Shown here: positions 33,376-44,230 of the stretch, piece by piece | Position numbering within the stretch: the stretch's first letter is position 1 | How the letters are laid out: every line of letters starts with the position of its first letter | Assembly: GCA_015227615.1 (NCBI GenBank) | Contig: JAALGZ010000079.1 | Location: 26,674-90,673 of the forward strand | Length of the DNA: 64,000 bases | Direction of reading: 5' to 3' | DNA from: Labyrinthula sp. Ha | Lineage: Eukaryota > Sar > Bigyra > Labyrinthulida > Labyrinthulaceae | Translations under genes and position numbers: made by a program | Notes under the pieces: model-generated | Told to the model about the DNA's origin: nothing | The model's input: only the letters and a program-made list of their open reading frames with translations | Database searches by the model: none

Positions 33376-33835
33376 TGAGATAAGTTAGTTTTGGTTTATA
33401 AGTATAGAAGAAGGAGCTGATGTTTTGACCTCTAGTAAATGAAACATAGTGATAGAAGTTGAGTGGGTGAGGTATAACCGAAACTTTGTTGAGAGCCAAG
33501 TGAAGCTCTTCTGGGTAATAAGAGGCTTGTGTAAATTGATATTTGATTAAAAGCAGTTGTATTTATAGAAAGTAGATATCGTTGAAAATTAGATAAATCG
33601 GTGGTGATGTCATATTGGAAGGTAACGGAAGGGGAAAAATGATGACGTGGTTTGGTGAAATACAGTTTTGACAATGATGGAATACGAACTTTAGTTTACT
33701 AAATATAGTTTTTCAGGAGTTTTTTTAAGCTTTAAATAATTGAAAGAAGAACTTTACAACAGTTTAAGAGACCAAGGGGAAAAAGAAGTTAATAATACTT
33801 AAAAGTTAAAATTGAGAACTAGACGTACTCAATAT
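33376..33835 (+). repeat. 5' LTR
   Basis: Begins TGAGATAAGTTAG and ends GTACTCAATAT; matches 40684-41135 throughout with scattered substitutions and small indels. The right end is set by the TGG of a putative primer site at 33836. If LTRs must end in CA, the end would be 33831 instead. Confidence 0.85.
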
Positions 33836-33862
33836 TGGATCCAATATTCGTATAAATAGTAC
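33831..33862. promoter_or_regulatory. Putative primer-binding site within a perfect palindrome, plus TATA-bearing hairpin
   Basis: TGGATCC starts at 33836, directly after the LTR, where a tRNA primer site is expected. It lies inside the perfect 18-bp palindrome 33831-33848 (AATATTGGATCCAATATT). This overlaps a second inverted repeat, ATTCGTA/TACGAAT, whose loop contains TATAAATAG (about 33845-33865). No tRNA is assigned. Confidence 0.4.
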
Positions 33863-33876
33863 GAATTATAATAGTT

Positions 33877-35265
33877 ATGGAAAAAGTAAATAAAAACAGA
33901 AGTGAGCCGTCGGTCCTAAGATCGGAAACTGGTAAAAAATCAGGAGGAAGGGTAGTTGCAGAAATCAGTCCTAGGAACATAATTACCCGAGATACAGAAA
34001 CTCCTCAGGAGTTGAATCAGGTTGCGGTTGAGGAAAGTAGTAGCCAAGGAGACATGCGGGATAATAGCGAAGTGTATAGAAACGTCTCTGATCCAGGGGA
34101 AAACATGACAACCCCGGATCATGTGGTAGTAACCCGTGAAAGTTGGGAGCAGCTTAAGCAAAATTATGAAACTCTACAACTTCAAATGAGTACTTTACTC
34201 CAACAGGTAAAGACAAATATATCAACAGGAAGCAATAGGGAAGTCAAGAAGGATCTGTTTAGGATCAAAGGTAAAGGAAAAAGTAGGTCGGAGATAGAGG
34301 AATCTGATTCGGAGAATAGCACTCATTCTGCTTCTTCGTTGAGTTTAACTGATTCAAATATTAGTAAGGGAAATAACGGAGGTTTGAGAGAGAGCGAAAG
34401 GAAGAGAGCGAGGGAGGAAAAATACAAAGGGAAACTTGTGTTGCGATCCCTGGAGCCAAGTAAGGTGGCAGCATTTTTGGAGAAATTTCAGGTGTATGAG
34501 ACCAACGTAGTCAGGGGGAGGTTAAAGTTGCCTGATGTGGATATTTCTTTATGTTTGAGCAATCAGGTGCAGGTGATGTTGCAAGATGAGGGAGTTAGTG
34601 CGATGAGAAGGAGGTCCGCAATGAAGTACCTCAACAGCATCAACAAGCTACAGAATAAAGGAAAAGAAAAGATACTAATGAGGAAAGTAGAGAGCTTGGT
34701 GTGGTCCAATGAGGGCGCACCTATGAAGTCCATGACCAAATTCTTGAAGCAAGTTACGGACATGGTGAGGGGAATCAGGTGGGAGACTAAGTCGATGGAG
34801 AAGGAGTCTTGTTTGAAAGTGATTAGGAAATTACCTTTCGAATTTGGATCAGGAAATGCAAAGAGAACCCAGTCGATTAAGAAGTGGAAGAAAATGGGAA
34901 AATTAAGGAGAGGTTTGAATAAAGGGAGCATGGTAATATCGGAATCGGATCTTCAGAGTCCTGCTTTGAAACTTCTGGTTGATGAATCAATAAAAAATAA
35001 AGTTAATGTCGGTGTAATGTCTGATCCAGTCTTGAGACAACGCCCTAAGAACCCTCGAGGGGAGTCAAACCCCCCGGATGGAATAAAAAGAACGACATTG
35101 GAAGACGGATCTTTAATACATTTCCTACCGAAGACCTGGTCTAAGAGGAAGAGGAAGCAGTACGGCATGGACCACAACCTATGCCTCTTTTGCTATATCA
35201 GTAATCACCGATTTGATGACTGCAAGTTGGTTAAACAGCGGGATGCGAAAAAGGGAAGACGGTAA
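33877..35265 (+). CDS. gag: Gag of the LTR element (open reading frame intact)
   Basis: A 462-residue frame from ATG, 41 bases after the LTR, to TAA. The N-terminal third is polar and acidic with a possible coiled coil (ESWEQLKQNYETLQLQ). The middle (about residues 190-330) is helical and capsid-like. Near the C-terminus is a retroviral zinc knuckle, C-x2-C-x4-H-x4-C (CLFCYISNHRFDDC, residues 436-449), which packages RNA in this class. A basic stretch precedes it. Unlike the downstream pol, this frame has no stop or frameshift. The next frame starts 18 bases after the stop in a different phase, so pol would need frameshifting, reinitiation or a separate message. Confidence 0.82.
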   Translation: MEKVNKNRSEPSVLRSETGKKSGGRVVAEISPRNIITRDTETPQELNQVAVEESSSQGDMRDNSEVYRNVSDPGENMTTPDHVVVTRESWEQLKQNYETLQLQMSTLLQQVKTNISTGSNREVKKDLFRIKGKGKSRSEIEESDSENSTHSASSLSLTDSNISKGNNGGLRESERKRAREEKYKGKLVLRSLEPSKVAAFLEKFQVYETNVVRGRLKLPDVDISLCLSNQVQVMLQDEGVSAMRRRSAMKYLNSINKLQNKGKEKILMRKVESLVWSNEGAPMKSMTKFLKQVTDMVRGIRWETKSMEKESCLKVIRKLPFEFGSGNAKRTQSIKKWKKMGKLRRGLNKGSMVISESDLQSPALKLLVDESIKNKVNVGVMSDPVLRQRPKNPRGESNPPDGIKRTTLEDGSLIHFLPKTWSKRKRKQYGMDHNLCLFCYISNHRFDDCKLVKQRDAKKGRR

Positions 35266-35282
35266 ATGAGATTGAAAAAGAG

Positions 35283-37262
35283 GTGAGTAGTAGCGAGAAG
35301 GTGGAGGCAGGAGAAACTGGTTCGGAGGATGAAGAGTCAGTATTTGTAGGAGTAGTCGAATTGTTGGATGTTGAAGAGGATTATGATGAAGAATCGGGGG
35401 ATTTCATCGTGGGGTCTCTAGATCCAGTGGATTTGGGAGAAATTCTGGTTGAGGATGAGTTTGAGGTAAGAGGAGATACAGGAAAGCCGCATATAACAGA
35501 TAAAAAAGTGTAGCAATACCTAAAAAGTAAAGTAAAAGAAAAGATCTCATCTTGGGGGAGAGAGGGTACAATAACTCCTAATCAGGCTCAAGAGCTGGAG
35601 AGCATTTTATTGAATCATCTCGAAGCTTTTGGGTCAAAATTGCAAAATGTGACTTCAATAACCTTACACCTATGAAGATCGAGCTGCGTGAACGGGTCGC
35701 GGAATCTGTAAGCAAGCCTTACCCGATATTCAAGGTCACTATGGAAGCCCTAAAAAACAAATTAAGAGAATTAGAGGATATGGGAATGATTAGGAGAGAA
35801 CCTAACCCTTTCTTCTCTTCCCCTGTGATTATGGTTTCAAAACCAGGAAAGAGGGATGAGTATAGGATGGTAGTCGAGCTCCATAGATAAAACATGTCTG
35901 TTAAGCCTACTGGAGCTGGATTACCAGATCTGGAAACCCAGTTAGCTTGGTTCAAGGGCACTGAAAAATATTTCGGGAGTTTTGATGGATTAAGTGGATT
36001 TGATTATTTGAGGGTGGAAGATGGAGCTCAGAAATATTTGGGGATGGTGACACCGTGGGGTTGCCATACTATGTTGATGCCCCCCCCCCCAAATATACCA
36101 AGAAAGGTTGATCAACGAGGTCCTGGGAGGTGTAAATGAGGACAGTTTGTTCGGCAACGGAGTTCTACATTGGATCGATGATTCACTGATTTATGCTTCA
36201 TCCTGCGAAGAATATAAGGATATCCTTTCCCAATTCTTGACCCAGTGCATAGAGGTGAATTTTCGGTTAACCTTGGATAAGTGTGATTTAATCAAAGGGA
36301 AAGTGAGGTAGTGTGGGAGAATATTGGAGAATGGGATATGGAGATATGATGAGAAATATTTTCTGAAGTTGGAGGATATGGGGGAGGTAAGGAAGATGGA
36401 TCAGATGGAAAACTTGATCTATGTAAGCACATGGTTAGCTTCCAGTGCACCAAATTTATCCAGGAAACGTCACTACCTAAGTAAGAAGGTGAAAGAACTT
36501 GAACGAGACCTAAAAATAAAATACAAAAAGAAACTAAGTAAGCATCAGCGGAGAGCCGCATCAGTGGAAGAGTGGTGGAGTGAAGGAGATCGAGATGAGG
36601 TTCGCAAATTCTTGAAGTCCATATCTTCCAGTGCTGCTAACAGTTTGAAGCTGTATCAGCTGGATAGGAGGGTGGCTATATTCACGGATGCGAGTTTCCA
36701 GTTTTGGTCAGGAGTGCTGGGACTGTGGGATAGTGACGGGTGATTACCTATATACTTCGGAAGTGGAGAGTTTGTAGGAAGTAGCATCCACTGGAGCATG
36801 ACCGACAAGGAGATCTATCCAATCATTAAGCTAATGAAAAGGTATAGATTTATATTGTAAGGCCACCAGACACCCATAGAGCTCTATACAGATCACAAAA
36901 ACTTGATTTACCTAATGACACCAAAAAAGGACATGAAAGTTGCTGCATTCGGGCGGGTCCAGAGATGGATACTCACCATTCAGGAGTTTATCACTGTTTT
37001 TCATCATCTTCCAGGGGAGACCAATGTTTTGGCAGATCTGTTGACAAGATGGGGGTAAATGGAGTCAGAGGATATGTTAAGTCTAAAAACCAAGCTGGTA
37101 GATAGCAATGGAGATGCAGGTTGGAGAATTCGTTGGAAGGGAATAACCTTATTTGCAAATAGTGATGATGTAGATGCTGAGAAGATGGAGATCGCCAATA
37201 TGATTGGTGGACCTGATGGTGAAGAGGTGCTGGAGGTGGAAGTGAATAAAGTTAAGGGGTAG
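35283..37262 (+). pseudogene. pol: Reverse transcriptase and RNase H region of pol, broken
   Basis: It opens with an acidic spacer (35283-35513). The reverse transcriptase is recognisable from KIELRERVAESVSKPYP (35675 on) through FSSPVIMVSKPGKRDEYRMVVE, LPDLETQLAWFKG, FGSFDGLSGFDYL and the catalytic WIDDSLIYASS (DD at 36177-36182). RNase H follows with VAIFTDAS (about 36675) and IELYTDHKNLIYL (about 36870-36908), then the tether LPGETNVLADLLTRWG. Lesions: TAG 35511-35513, a frame change before 35672, TAA 35888-35890, a C10 run at about 36079-36088 that shifts frame in front of the INEVLGG motif, TAG 36309, TGA 36741, TAA 36858, TAA 37056 and TAG 37260. Non-functional as it stands. Confidence 0.85.
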
Positions 37263-37339
37263 AGGTTTGACCCGGGGGTAGTAAAGTTTTTAGAAAATAG
37301 GGTTGCCGTACATTCTCTAAAAGAAATCAGGAATTAAAA

Positions 37340-38403
37340 ATGCTTACCATACCTGAAATAATAAAAGTACAAGAAGAATGTGAAATTAGTCTGAATAAAA
37401 TGGAAGCATCTCGAAATGAGTCTGGGGCCTGGATCAGCAAACAAGGGAAAGTAATCATACCTGGAGAGCTGATTGAGCGATTTATTGTTACCGCTCATAA
37501 TGCTTCAGGACATGGGAGTGTGGACGAAGTTATGCGTATTTTGGAGCCTTTCTTTTTCATTGATATACCTAGAAATAAACAAAAAATTCTAGTACAGAAT
37601 TTGAAGAAATGGTGCTTGCATTGTGACAGAGATATAAAGATGATCCGTAGACCTCTGAGGGAAATATACCACCCTTCTGAAGGAGAGTTGGTGTTACACC
37701 TTGATTTTTTCAAGGTAAAGGAATCATACATCTTGGTTATATTGGAAAATGTGTCAAGGAAAGTGTTGTTAATTGAAGACCCAATCCGTGTGCAGCGGTA
37801 GTTGTAAGCACTTTGGTGATGTGGAAAGGGTTGATAGGACTGCCGCCTACGTTTACTCTGGTCTCAAACAATGGTTATCATTTTAACAACGAAGTATTAA
37901 GGCAGTTTGAATCAAGGTTTCCAGCTGAACATGAATTTTCAATAGTATATAGTCATTGGAGTAATGGATCAATTGAAGTAATAAATAGGTTTGTTCTTCG
38001 AGTTCTACGGCAGTTGTGTAGTTGTTACATGATCGATAAAGAGAAGTGGAATGAATTGTTGCCCCAAGTGATGGATGTCATAAATAACAGTCGTTCACGT
38101 CATGGGTATTTTCCAAATGAGTTAACCTCGTATCTTTCTACTGCAAAGGGATTGAATAAAATAGCGGAGAATGATAAGGCAAGCATTTTGCCAATAGTAA
38201 CTCAGAGAAAACTTAGAGAATGTAAAAATCCTGGGAAGTTTAAGTCAGCTTCAGAAAAGTTGATGCAAATTATTTTGAACAGGAGAAATATAGTAGAGTC
38301 CATCATTAAAGAAAGCAGAGATAGATCAAGGAGATATATTAATGCTAAATTCAGATCATCAAGTGTAAACTTTGCGGCTGGAGATTTTGTATTGATTTCT
38401 TGA
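37340..38403 (+). pseudogene. Integrase core (HHCC and D,D35E), broken
   Basis: The zinc-binding domain shows AHNASGHGSVDEV and WCLHCDRD. The catalytic core follows: first acidic residue in LHLDFF (GAT 37703-37705), second position in LVSNNGYHF, where the aspartate has become asparagine (AAC 37867-37869), and glutamate in GSIEVINR (GAA 37975-37977). The last two are 35 residues apart as in D,D35E integrases. A frame change near 37795 separates the first acid from the rest, and TGA 38401-38403 closes the frame where the family usually continues through a tryptophan-rich strand. Both the frameshift and the D-to-N change would inactivate it. Confidence 0.85.
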
Positions 38404-39294
38404 GTAGGTACACCGTGGTTAAATGATAAAACAAGTTTAAGATAGATTGGAGCATATATAGTAGTAGTGGTTGAAGGTGAACATTGTTATAGGGTAGAAT
38501 CCATTGGAGGAAAGGAGCAAGTAGTTCATTTGCAACGAATGATTTTGTATCGGTCAAAATCTGAGGACTTTAAGGTAACCTCGGACATAAAACATAGTTT
38601 TTATTATAATCAGGGACCTTATTATGTAAAAAAGTTGTTAGATTTGAGAAATACAATAGACGGATTTGAGGTGTTGATCTGGTGGGAGGGGTTTACAAAG
38701 AGCAATGCAAACTGGCAAAGTATGCGCAGGCTCTATGAAGATGTTCCTCAGATAGTAAAAGAGTTCATTAGAAAAAACAAAGATGATACCATAGATTTTG
38801 AGAATGCTCATAAATTGATTAAAAAATGGGAGAGAGGTAAAAATAGTAAGGAGATAAATTTGATTGCAGAAAATACGGGTAATGTGCCTAAGAATGTTTG
38901 GTTGAAGGAGAGAATAAAAATAATTAGGTATCCTAGTAGAACGAGATCAATGTCAGAAGGGGTACCAGATGGTTTAAGTAGATCCAAAGGTTGGTCGTTA
39001 TAGGAAAAAGTATTATTTGAAAAGTTGAGTTTGAAATTTGGAATAGGAAATTGGAAAGAAATATGCTCACTGGGTTGTCTCCCTGGAAAAACTAAATCTC
39101 AAATGGCGACTCTTCTTCAAGCATCTTTAGGTAACCAATCAATAGGGGTATATAGAATGTTGAAAGTAAGGTTTGAGAAAATCAAAGAATATAACGATAG
39201 TCAGAAAAATGTCTATAGGCGTAATGGAATTATCGTACGAACTGGAAAAGAAAGATCGCCATCTGAACTAAATAAAGAAAGAGAGTTTTTTTAG
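38404..39294 (+). pseudogene. Integrase tail: chromodomain followed by SANT/Myb-like domain
   Basis: Same frame as the integrase core. After in-frame TGA and a TAG (near 38442), the frame is open from 38467. The chromodomain spans about 38617-38766 (YYVKKLLDLRN, FEVLIWWEGF, NANWQSM), expected to bind methylated histone tails and steer integration. A SANT/Myb-like domain follows at about 38985-39150 (GWSL, FGIGNWKEICSLGCLPGKT), then a segment QASLGNQSIGVYRMLKV seen in the same protist SANT-type family. TAG 39001-39003 interrupts the first SANT helix. The frame ends in a T7 run at 39285-39292, where a one-base shift leads directly into the protease part. Domain assignments are by eye. Confidence 0.72.
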
Positions 39295-39805
39295 GAAGAA
39301 GTTTGAAGTACAGAGCGATGGGAATCATATTAAAATTCCAGTTTTGAATGTAAGAGATGTAAATAATCCACGTCTTATCCTTCAAGATATAAAGAAAATG
39401 ATAAAGTTCATAAATGATTCGAAGATAGAAAAGGAATTTAAGGAGTCTGTAAATCATATTGAGGATAATGCAACAGAGGTAACTTGGCCAAGAGATAACT
39501 TTAGATCAAGTATCGGAAATAAGTGGTATAAGGTGTTAATTGACAGTGGTGCAGGGATCAGCTGCATAGGAAGTAATATGGTATCTTCAACTGAAATGGA
39601 AGTTGAGGGTGAAGAGTTAGCCAGGTTAAGTAATGTATTTGAAGTAATTATGAGGAAGTTGGAAATAATAGGGTATGCTTGGAAAGAAATCAAGTTAGTG
39701 CATACTAGAGTAAAAGTGAATTTGGGAAGGGTGTGTTTGTATGTCTTGGAAAGATCTATGAATAAAATAATAGTAAGAGAGAAAGTATTGAAAAAAATAA
39801 ACTGA
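39295..39805 (+). pseudogene. Retroviral-type aspartic protease placed after the integrase
   Basis: After the frame change at the T7 run, the frame reads RKKFEVQSDGNHIKIPVLN and on into a typical single-domain retropepsin. The catalytic motif is VLIDSGAGISCIG (DSGA at 39542-39553) and, about 80 residues on, NKIIVREKVLKK fits the usual IILGRDFL-like C-terminal element. The position is odd: Ty3/gypsy proteases normally lie between gag and reverse transcriptase, and none was seen there. The frame ends TGA 39803-39805, just after an A7 run (39791-39797), where a one-base shift restores the methyltransferase frame. Together with the preceding and following parts it looks like one ancestral polyprotein. 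Confidence 0.7.
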
Positions 39806-40650
39806 GACCTGTGGATGTTTTGATGGGGAGATGTAAGAATATTGATCTTGAAATAAATGCTTTTGGAGATAATTTAAAGGAAAGATGTTTGAAAGAGTGG
39901 GAGGATTTGTATAACTGCAAGTTAAGTAAGAAAGAAAAGAGAAAGAAATATAGAAAGTTGGTTTCTGAATATTTGAAGAGTAATAATAGTTGTTTTGATG
40001 GAGTTCGAGTAGGTGAAATTACAGATAATTTGTATAAATTTGAGGATTTAGAAAAAGTGGGAGAGCAGTGCTTTATCATATGGAAACAACCTAGTAAGAG
40101 TAGATATATGATTTCGGATGTGTTTAGGTTGAATTTGAAAGTAGTGGGTGAATATGATGTTGTTTTACTTGATCCTGCTTGGGATGATGCAGTGTCCTCT
40201 AATCCTACAAGGGCATTGTCAATAACATATCCAACGATTAAAGTGGACCAAGTAAAACAAATCCCGGTTAATAAGCTCTGTCCAGTTTGAGTTGTAGCTT
40301 TGTGGGTGACTAATTCGAAGCTGCAGGAGGGAATTGATATTTTAAAAACTTGGGAATGTCGATTAGTTGAAGTAGTGATATGGGTAAAAAAGACCAGTAG
40401 CGGAAAACTTTATCACTCTCATGGACAATTCTTGCGGTACAACAAGGAAATATTATTGCTGTCAGTTAGGGGAAATTCTTTTCTATCCAAATTCAGAAGC
40501 GAAGATGTAATAATGAGTAAAGTTCGACAACAAAGTAGGAAGCGTGATGAAGTTTACCAGCTGTTGGAAAGACTTAATCCTGGTGTTAGATACTTAGAGT
40601 TTTTTGGGAGAAGATGGAACTATCATGAAGATTGGTTTACTATCGGTTAA
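39787..40650 (+). pseudogene. MT-A70 family adenine methyltransferase domain inside the LTR element, broken
   Basis: Continuous with the protease apart from the A7 frame change. A lysine-rich N-terminal part leads to YDVVLLDPAWDD, the DPPW catalytic motif of MT-A70 enzymes with the second proline changed to alanine (40171-40182). The segments SITYPTIKVDQVKQIPVNKL, ALWVTNSKLQEGIDILKTW, VEVVIWVKK, YNKEILLLSVRGN, KVRQQSRKRDEVYQLLERLNPG and LEFFGRR then follow in the order found in METTL3/METTL14-type proteins. TGA 40288-40290 interrupts the domain just before ALWVT, and the protein ends at TAA 40648-40650, 33 bases before the 3' LTR. MT-A70 enzymes make m6A in RNA or 6mA in DNA with S-adenosylmethionine. 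Activity of an ancestral intact copy is inferred. Confidence 0.8.
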
Positions 40651-40683
40651 GATGAAGCATCGAGCTTATAAAGAAAGCAGTAT

Positions 40684-41135
40684 TGATATAAGTTAGTTTT
40701 GGTTTGTAAATATAGAAGAAGGAGCTGATGTTCTGACCTCTATTAAATGAAATATAGTGATAGAAATGAGTTGAATGGGTGAGGTATAACCGAACCTTTG
40801 TTGAGAGCCAAGTGGAGCTCTTGTGGGTGAAAGAGGCTTATGTAAATTGATATTTGATTAAAAGCAGTTGTATTTATAAGAAGTAGATATCATTGATAAT
40901 TAGATAAATCGGTGGTAATGTCATATTGGAATGTAACGGAAGGGGAAAAATGATGACGTGGTTTGGTGAAATACAGTTTTGACGATGATCGAATACGAGC
41001 TGTAGTTTACTGAATATAGCTTTTCATAAGTTTTTAAAGCCTTAAGTAATCGATAGAAGAACTTTACAAGAGTTTGAGAAACCAAGGAGAAAAAGAAGTT
41101 AATAATAATTACAAGTCTTAATTGAGAACTAGACG
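40684..41135 (+). repeat. 3' LTR (with purine tract before it)
   Basis: Matches the 5' LTR from TGATATAAGTTAG to GTACTCAATAT. A short purine-rich tract, AAAGAAAGCAG (about 40671-40681), lies just upstream, where the plus-strand primer should be. Confidence 0.85.
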
Positions 41136-41334
41136 TACTCAATATCAATTTGGAGGTTGCAATAGAAACTAATAATTATCATATTCTGCGACATGACAAG
41201 TGGAACTGAGAACTGTATATAGATGTCTCGTTCGAGGCAAGATATGAACTCACATAATAGATGCAATGACTGGACTTGAGTTGGATCTAGAGGATTAAGT
41301 TGCCGCTGATGTTCTCTATACATTTTAGAAGAAT

Positions 41335-42103: not shown

Positions 42104-44230
42104 TTAAACAACCATTTGCCAGCTTAATTCCTTTGTCCTTCTAGATCTCTTCATTGGGGAAAGTTTTTCCACTGCAAGAATCCTTTTACATCCATAAAAC
42201 CAAAGTTGAGCATCTTGAAGACTTTTAATTGATGGAGACAGGTTTTCCCTGCTTGCTTCATTATCAAGTAAGTTCATCAAGAATTTTAAATCATTGAGTT
42301 TTTTCGGCAATTACGATTAGGCATGTCGATTGGCGTGCAAGTTTTCAATGGTGGTAGGCTTTTTTCAGCATTGCCACAGTTCCAAATCAACCAGAGAGAA
42401 CGCGCAGTTCCTTTTGGAAATGAGAACCCTACAGGAACACGTCTTAGAACATTATCTGGCCAAAGGTTTAAGGTGGATGGAGGAGTAGAGCTTATCATAT
42501 TTTCAACGCTTTCCTGTTCATTTCCATCATTGCCTGTAAGGGTTCTCCTTCTTTCTAAGATAAATCATGTTTCATGCTTTGCAAACACTTTATCTAACAT
42601 CTTTTTTAGCACAGCATGTGTGATTACTCTAGATCCAACATCAGGTTCCTCTGAAACATCTTTAAATTGAGTAAAAATGATTGATCAGTCCTCAATTCTA
42701 GATCTTTTATTTCGTTGAACCAATCCATCTACAACTCTACCCATATGATGAAGTTTTGTTAAGATGTCTACGTGTGCGAGAATTCCTGTTGCCTGAAGAC
42801 CACTTCCATCAGAGTTAGAAACACCGCAAATCACTTTTTCTCTAAGAGGTTGAATTAGGCTTCTCTCCTGAAAATTGGGGTGTTAAAAAGAAGATGATTT
42901 TCTGGTAGCTCTTTTCTTAAAAAATTCTCATGGCACACCATTGATGCTAAACAAAACTCCAGGATCAAAGATATTTGTTTTGGAGCGCTTGGAAACATCA
43001 ACTGCTTAGCTCTTTCTACCTGGTCATCAGCAAACGTAAATCTTGGTGGTAATGTAGAAAACTTGTAGGTGCTAATTGGTAGATCGCTTACAGTACGTCC
43101 CACGTACTGATCTCTAGCAGCTTCAAAGCGAAGGTAGACGTTTAAAACAGTGCCCATTGACAATCCAGCACGTAACTGAACTGCAGCAATTGGAGGTGCA
43201 TTAGTGTGACCTGAAGCAAAAAAAAATGCTGCATCTTTTCTTAGGGAATGAGTTCCAAACTCCTCAGGAGTTAAACCTCTTCTCCTAAGCTGGTTCTAAA
43301 CTTCATCGAGACTAAAAATTCTTTTCTGACCTTTTCTAAATCTGTCGTACTGATTGTTTCCACCAAAAAGAGAGGTGCCATCTCCAAACCCAAAGATTGA
43401 CCAGTACATGCCAAGGGGCAAAACTAGACAAATTTCAGGTTGTAGCCAATTAGCGTAAAAGTGTCTAGGATCTCTACCTTTTTCAACTGCTTGATTATTC
43501 TTCTGATGGCAGAAAATGATGCAAAGAGTATCTTCTTTCCAAGCTAAATGCCTGTAATGAATGCTGAAGGTGTTAACAGCTCTACACATTAAGTTCCAAG
43601 TGATTGTTAAAAATGTTTTGAAGAAAACAAAATCCTTTTTGTCAGTGTGCAACATTGCTAAATTGAGGATCTTGAACAAAGGCATTGTAAGAGGATCTTT
43701 CCCACGTTTAACCACACCTTGACCTGCTTGTTCTTCCGAAACAATTTTTCTTTTTAAACCTCTAAAATAATTTTTTAACTCGTTCTCGAACTCAAAACTA
43801 AAACGAACATGGTGTTGACCGTAGAGACTGTAAAGAGCAGAACGGTGAGTTGAGCAACTAGAAAAACTGAAAAAGTTCCCATCACTTCTTTTCTTAGTTA
43901 CAATCCACGACATGAAGGTTTCTACATCTAGACCATCAAATTTCAAGGGTGGTAAATTCGGAAAGGTTTTAATTGTTTTCCTAATGAGTATTAAACTCAT
44001 TGGCGCTTCAGCATCACTTCCTTCCTTCAATTTATTAAGGAAATCTTCAGCCAAAACCTTGGGTTTGTTTCTTACGCACCAAGCTACAAATTGGGTGTAG
44101 GAACCCTCGGAAGAGCTCCGAGAGTCTTTGGCAATCGTGTTTGCTCTGATTTCAGAAACATGTTGTGAAATCTCTGCCCAATCCTCTTCATTCAATCGAT
44201 CATCCTTTTTCTTCGAAGTAAAAAATTAAG
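42104..44230 (-). mobile_element. Crypton-type tyrosine recombinase element, broken
   Basis: The recombinase domain lies at about 43000-44200, with the expected catalytic residues: arginine in NLMCRAVNT, lysine in CHQKNN, the H-x-x-R box in FGTHSLRKDAA and the tyrosine in ARDQYVGRTV. The C-terminal part (42104-42498), with LRRVPVGFSFPKG, LWLIWNCGNAEKSLPPL and KELSWQMVV, matches the GCR1_C-like DNA-binding region of Cryptons. Lesions: TAG 43296-43298 (at the FSLDEV boundary), a stop at 42855, TGA codons near 42679 and 42568, and a frame change at an A-run near 42303. The frame upstream of about 44195 has no ATG before a TAA, so the start or a first exon is missing. Cryptons move as DNA through a tyrosine recombinase; element ends were not found. 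Confidence 0.75.

Follow-up and report, generated by a model that had tools for sequence, protein, structure and literature searches.

How does an adenine methyltransferase come to lie inside a long terminal repeat (LTR) retrotransposon, and what would such an element do with it? The question is raised by a 64,000-nucleotide stretch of the Labyrinthula sp. Ha genome (assembly GCA_015227615.1, contig JAALGZ010000079.1, positions 26,674 to 90,673 of the forward strand; here called the window), in which an earlier note had described an MT-A70 domain with a DPAW catalytic box. Both the coordinates and the description were right. The domain occupies 40153..40650 (+), carries the DPAW box, is interrupted by an in-frame TGA at 40288-40290 and ends in TAA. 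When searched with the Pfam family PF05063, the open reading frame (ORF) at 40291-40650 matches with an E-value of 2.7e-24, the DPAW-bearing ORF at 39766-40290 alone reaches E 0.0085, under the family cut-off, and a genome-wide search joins the two into a single 116.9-bit match that contains a TGA and a TAA. Copy L014 is 87% identical to the window over 40153-40647. The domain belongs to a complete but broken, old Ty3-type LTR element at 33376-41144 (+), which is, by the comparisons set out below, a decayed member of a large, recently active Ty3-type chromodomain LTR-retrotransposon lineage, and whose polyprotein ends in what by sequence is a two-part module: a p1-like Myb domain followed by an AMT1/MTA1-like MT-A70 domain of predicted methyltransferase activity.

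The extent of this lineage can be seen in the 50.8 Mb of the genome searched (153 contigs). All of the best 150 of 354 PF05063 candidates scored over the curated cut-off, and the union of two MT-A70 searches gives at least 170 places, one of which is the host AMT1 gene. These places are taken from search listings, while 20 copies were read individually; the latter were selected for MT-A70 and mostly long frames, and are thus uninformative on how frequently the domain is absent. Open frames of at least 1,800 amino acids hold 28 of the 150 PF05063 matches (2 of the 28 with a TGA inside the match), and frames among the copies read extend up to 2,660 amino acids. LTR pairs were found in 17 of the 20, with identities of 93-100% and full identity in one, and a 4-bp target duplication was recognized by eye in 12 of the 16 copies with listed ends, the exceptions being L013, L015, L017 and L022. 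The 5' LTR of the window copy itself, used as a query, recovers at least 40 places including itself, at 74-100% identity (best 40 of 55 candidates). The polyprotein order in the family is gag, reverse transcriptase (RT), RNase H, integrase, chromodomain, Myb and MT-A70. A Pfam scan covered eight of the 20 polyproteins, and in all eight MT-A70 closes the series, preceded by RT, RNase H and integrase in that order, with RVT_1 and RT_RNaseH over their cut-offs; rve is detected in all eight and passes its cut-off in one (L023), and the PF00385 chromodomain follows the integrase in seven at E <= 0.1, five of them over cut-off. The integrase HHCC motif is present in 19 of the 20 copies read. With polyprotein identity between families as low as 25-30%, the proposal that an LTR retrotransposon lineage carries a conserved adenine-methyltransferase domain holds for many and divergent copies.

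Relatives also occur beyond this genome. Two proteins from other sources in ENA, P0012 (on a 9.0-kb contig) and P0013 (on an 8.2-kb contig), show the same domain order including Myb and MT-A70, a chromodomain being matched in P0013 and not in P0012. In its MT-A70 domain, P0012 shares 39-41% identity with the two best-matching elements of the Labyrinthula genome and 46% with host AMT1, and in its Myb domain P0013 does not exceed 49% identity to any listed Labyrinthula copy; because identities are that low, the two proteins do not stem from the Labyrinthula genome. P0031, a 243-residue protein on a 2.6-kb contig where the surrounding element is not visible, was counted among the element domains when the trees were built. 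Relatives from the same search that lack MT-A70 (P0014-P0018 and P0020, some on short contigs) fall outside the MT-A70 clade, and in viral_contigs the MT-A70 alignment gave 44 pattern matches, none of them confirmed as a relative.

For the trees, near-duplicates among the 20 copies were omitted, so that the MT-A70 trees contain 15 of them and the RT tree 14; other MT-A70 proteins are represented by 8 of 11 in a quick tree and by seven rows in a careful tree, which also omits METTL14, P0041 and L041, long-branched sequences that are all included in the quick tree. The seven rows form a separate clade in the careful tree, and METTL3 and METTL14 adjoin one group of element domains in the quick tree. 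A clade made of the genome's own elements and host AMT1 is rejected (p 5.6e-6), and there is therefore no sign of recent capture from this host, while one clade uniting every element domain is neither supported nor rejected (p 0.171). P0031 pairs with L028 (95/85), and P0012 groups with P0013 among the Labyrinthula genome's own families (82/92). The window copy, taken by itself, is broken, and could be read as a one-off insertion of a host gene, an outcome the earlier note had itself envisaged, or as an assembly chimera; the number of MT-A70 places, the long frames with target duplications, the relatives from other sources and the rejected host clade together rule this out, and leave it next to no probability.

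Comparison of the RT-integrase and MT-A70 trees shows 8 of 13 splits in common and a distance correlation of r 0.75, a value reached in 0 of 9999 permutations. Conflicts with moderate support concern the position of L028 and the grouping of P0012 either with P0013 or with L025/L026, and L027 is also placed differently, weakly so in the MT-A70 tree. On balance, these trees fit a module that has broadly co-diverged with RT, as would follow from one old capture and subsequent inheritance together with RT.

How general the methyltransferase is within the lineage was approached from RNase H. Among the best 150 of 379 RNase H candidates, 74 are followed on their 3' side by a listed MT-A70 match at a distance of 1.5-5.5 kb, and 96 of the 170 MT-A70 places are without RNase H upstream among the matches listed. 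Of the other 76 RNase H matches, for which no MT-A70 is listed, four were inspected: the domain is strong in two of them, decayed in the third and absent from the fourth, L042. The MT-A70-bearing elements make up one side of a branch with Shimodaira-Hasegawa-like approximate likelihood ratio (SH-aLRT) values of 100 and 99 in two quick trees with long-branched comparison rows, and L042 lies outside this clade, on a long branch, in the RNase H-integrase tree. L042 (G000:C1:1708853-1714453) is a Ty3-type copy with broken frames. EukProt also contains near-identical proteins, and one polyprotein from there, P0009, presumably from the same species (1737 amino acids, seven members), stops inside the Myb domain and is without MT-A70; its family may have lost the domain or may carry it in a second frame.

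What kind of MT-A70 enzyme do these elements carry? Among solved MT-A70 families the top profile score of the element domain is to MTA1, with 242.6 bits vs 159.5 bits for METTL3, and by this score it is nearest to AMT1/MTA1, the ciliate writer of N6-methyladenine in DNA (6mA), a placement that the tree backbone does not settle: topologies joining the elements with AMT1 (p 0.247) and with METTL3 (p 0.09) are indistinguishable. A METTL3-type identity is disfavoured by its lower score and by a query of the genome with METTL3, which found host AMT1 as the best match and nothing closer to METTL3 among the best 150 of 343 candidates, although introns could hide a gene. The catalytic aspartate is present in 19 of 19 element rows with a letter at that position (two have gaps) and the W or Y of the box in 19 of 20; R221 of MTA1 is shared by all 21 element domains, and the METTL3 row has a gap there. 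Residues for S-adenosylmethionine (SAM) are largely retained as well (R357 in 21/21, N360 in 20/21, S332 in 16/21), N370 and E371 being variable. In addition, the Myb segment before MT-A70 matches p1, the DNA-binding partner of MTA1, in sequence and in predicted fold, and this likeness covers both the Myb domain and the p1 sequence that comes after it. The host genome holds an AMT1 gene (G000:C91:220767-221273) and two p1-like genes (C100:136084-136311 and C1:1284467-1284688), and may therefore have a working 6mA pathway.

The AMT1/MTA1-type score, the p1-like DNA-binding domain within the same chain and the presence of R221 make DNA, in the form of complementary DNA (cDNA) or insertions, a likelier substrate than RNA. 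These features, and the outcome of the METTL3 query, speak against a role in which MT-A70 would methylate the element's transcript (N6-methyladenosine, m6A) as an aid to stability, translation or packaging, which we regard as unlikely.

That the domain has been maintained can be judged from ratios of nonsynonymous to synonymous change (dN/dS), calculated for pairs of at least 120 codons with over 60% amino-acid identity and dS of 0.03-2.0, a filter from which fast-changing pairs are thus absent; the pairs share copies and are non-independent. MT-A70 gives 0.05-0.62 across the 27 filtered pairs; where dS reaches 0.078 or more (20 pairs), the range is 0.05-0.19. For two pairs the domains were compared one by one, with ratios of 0.05-0.07 for MT-A70, 0.03-0.04 for RT, 0.04-0.05 for RNase H, 0.05-0.08 for integrase, 0.07-0.09 for gag, 0.08 for Myb and 0.21-0.25 for the protease-like segment. 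In the saturated pair L014/L009, MT-A70 retains 74% identity and Myb 58%, and RT, RNase H and integrase stand at 80-84%. MT-A70 is under purifying selection, with a constraint nearly that of the replication enzymes. It has also to be considered whether the module mainly targets or tethers, the p1-type Myb and the chromodomain steering integration and the methyltransferase fold binding without catalysis. Both of the former domains are chromatin- or DNA-binding, and some copies have altered catalytic boxes (DPPG in L015; DPPY in L021, L022, L024 and L028), but the low dN/dS and the retention of the catalytic aspartate and most SAM residues make such a role quite improbable.

The reading that we favour, with a probability of roughly 0.6, is that the p1-MTA1-like module places 6mA, which in AMT1 hosts marks active genes, on the cDNA or insertions of the element itself and thereby serves escape from silencing. 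Integrase, chromodomain and Myb would hold the polyprotein at the element's DNA, where the module would write 6mA at ApT sites on new cDNA or on a fresh insertion; in a host with the AMT1 pathway this would be the mark of an active gene, which host AMT1 could maintain through replication, so that a new copy would start out marked as an active gene and escape silencing. Catalytic activity, DNA as substrate, the benefit of a permissive mark and the site of action are here what we infer from sequence. In AMT1-encoding species 6mA has been reported at ApT sites close to where active genes begin, and AMT1 has been suggested to act on hemimethylated sites (excerpts of PMC12695648); the host could therefore preserve a mark that the element had set first. 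Weighing against this reading, the same excerpts report that 6mA is not enriched on transposable elements in the species studied, which may or may not carry such elements. A more far-reaching version, in which the polyprotein would suffice by itself to write 6mA de novo and would label every new insertion as an active gene, the label being maintained by host AMT1, is tentative and falls somewhat short of even odds. The module might instead act otherwise on DNA, by protecting cDNA from editing or nucleases or by marking rival elements or host genes; protection from deaminase-type editing and regulatory roles are discussed for elements bearing DNA methyltransferases (DNMTs) in passages of de Mendoza et al. 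2018 (PMC5890265), but a single protein that combines integrase with chromodomain and Myb would favour action in cis, and we hold such roles to be decidedly improbable.

The window element itself, read mostly by alignment to L014 and on the plus strand throughout, bears out the position of MT-A70 between integrase-derived sequence and the 3' LTR, with chromodomain, Myb and protease-like segments in between. Its 5' LTR (~33376..33834, TG...ATA, ends placed by analogy with intact copies) and 3' LTR (~40684..41144, from LTR comparison) are 91.2% identical over 453 aligned bases (Kimura distance 0.094), and the flanks show no remaining matching target duplication. A gag-like segment, assigned by position (33877..35253, 79.5% to L014, with no Pfam gag match), contains a CCHC knuckle at 35161-35250, as in L014. 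It is followed by RT (35834..36317, frame broken near 36100), RNase H (36576..36989, with in-frame stops), integrase (37478..37953, with its HHCC part at 37478-37645 and core at 37703-37953) and the integrase C-terminal part (38449..38541). The chromodomain (38623..38772) matches PF00385 at E 0.0059, under cut-off, and the p1/AMTP1-like Myb DNA-binding domain (38962..39219) was matched in the p1 search, the likeness to p1 being shown for the family. Next come an aspartyl-protease-like segment with DSGA (39473..39790, weak PF08284 match), in an unusual place 3' of the integrase, and the methyltransferase N-terminal extension and linker (39802..40152). The protease-like segment lies between Myb and MT-A70 in L009-L019 and L027 as well, is found 5' of RT in L020-L024 and L028, and was not seen in L025 or L026; this shift among families is an unusual move.

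A perfect 18-bp palindrome, AATATTGGATCCAATATT (33831..33848, +), spans the junction of LTR and internal region at the primer-binding-site position. Perfect palindromes of 12-18 bp across or after the 5' LTR end were found in 16 of 16 elements tested (window, L009-L015 and L021-L028), and their central six bases vary by family (GGATCC, GAATTC, TTGCAA, CTCGAG, GTCGAC, TTCGAA, TGATCA) while palindromy itself is retained, a hint that the primer may be a paired RNA dimer or RNA of the element itself. Just past the 3' LTR, a broken tyrosine-recombinase-like ORF (42855-44225, -) with a weak PF13495 match (E 0.037) and an HxxR...Y pattern recognized by eye is possibly a remnant of Crypton or DIRS type. 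DIRS elements use a tyrosine recombinase; a DIRS element with a Dam-like enzyme is excluded here by the integrase and the MT-A70 present, and the recombinase-like ORF lies outside the LTRs on the opposite strand.

Chromoviruses are Ty3/gypsy elements with a chromodomain, and gag, RT, RNase H, integrase, chromodomain and a short target duplication are common to them and to the Labyrinthula elements, which add Myb and MT-A70, a protease 3' of the integrase in several families, and the primer-site palindrome. Methyltransferases in retrotransposons have precedents. DNMT-bearing retrotransposons, old and active, are known in dinoflagellates and charophytes, and self-methylation of cDNA has been proposed for them (excerpts of PMC5890265); they share with the present elements a captured eukaryotic DNA methyltransferase, yet theirs are cytosine (C5) enzymes unrelated to MT-A70, whereas the Labyrinthula enzyme is of adenine type and accompanied by a DNA-binding partner domain. 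DIRS retrotransposons with an adenine methyltransferase are likewise described in parts of PMC5890265 and PMC6338049, but theirs is a bacterial Dam-like enzyme, in contrast to MT-A70 in an integrase-bearing LTR element. The ciliate MTA1 complex, MTA1-MTA9-p1-p2 (passages of PMC9852454), shares the MTA1-nearest catalytic domain and the p1-type Myb; there they are separate host subunits, whereas in Labyrinthula p1-like and MTA1-like parts stand in one polyprotein stretch, and no MTA9-like partner was seen. A search of the open-licence literature gave no title or abstract reporting MT-A70 or AMT1 in LTR elements, nor any with an AMT1/p1 module, and the passages on transposable elements in PMC12695648 make no mention of the former. 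We regard as new the enzyme class, an AMT1/MTA1-like MT-A70, and its partner domain in a retroelement, cytosine and Dam methyltransferases in retrotransposons being known already.

The effect of 6mA on eukaryotic transposons is disputed, and here a lineage keeps a 6mA-type writer and a DNA-binding partner under selection across divergent families and in other sources. If the proposed reading is true, a retrotransposon would have turned a host mark of permissive chromatin into a tool of its own, the reverse of methylating mobile DNA for silencing. The natural p1-MTA1 fusion is, furthermore, a potential single-chain model of the MTA1 complex, and the Labyrinthula host offers a direct test of whether, and to what end, 6mA is employed by a mobile element.
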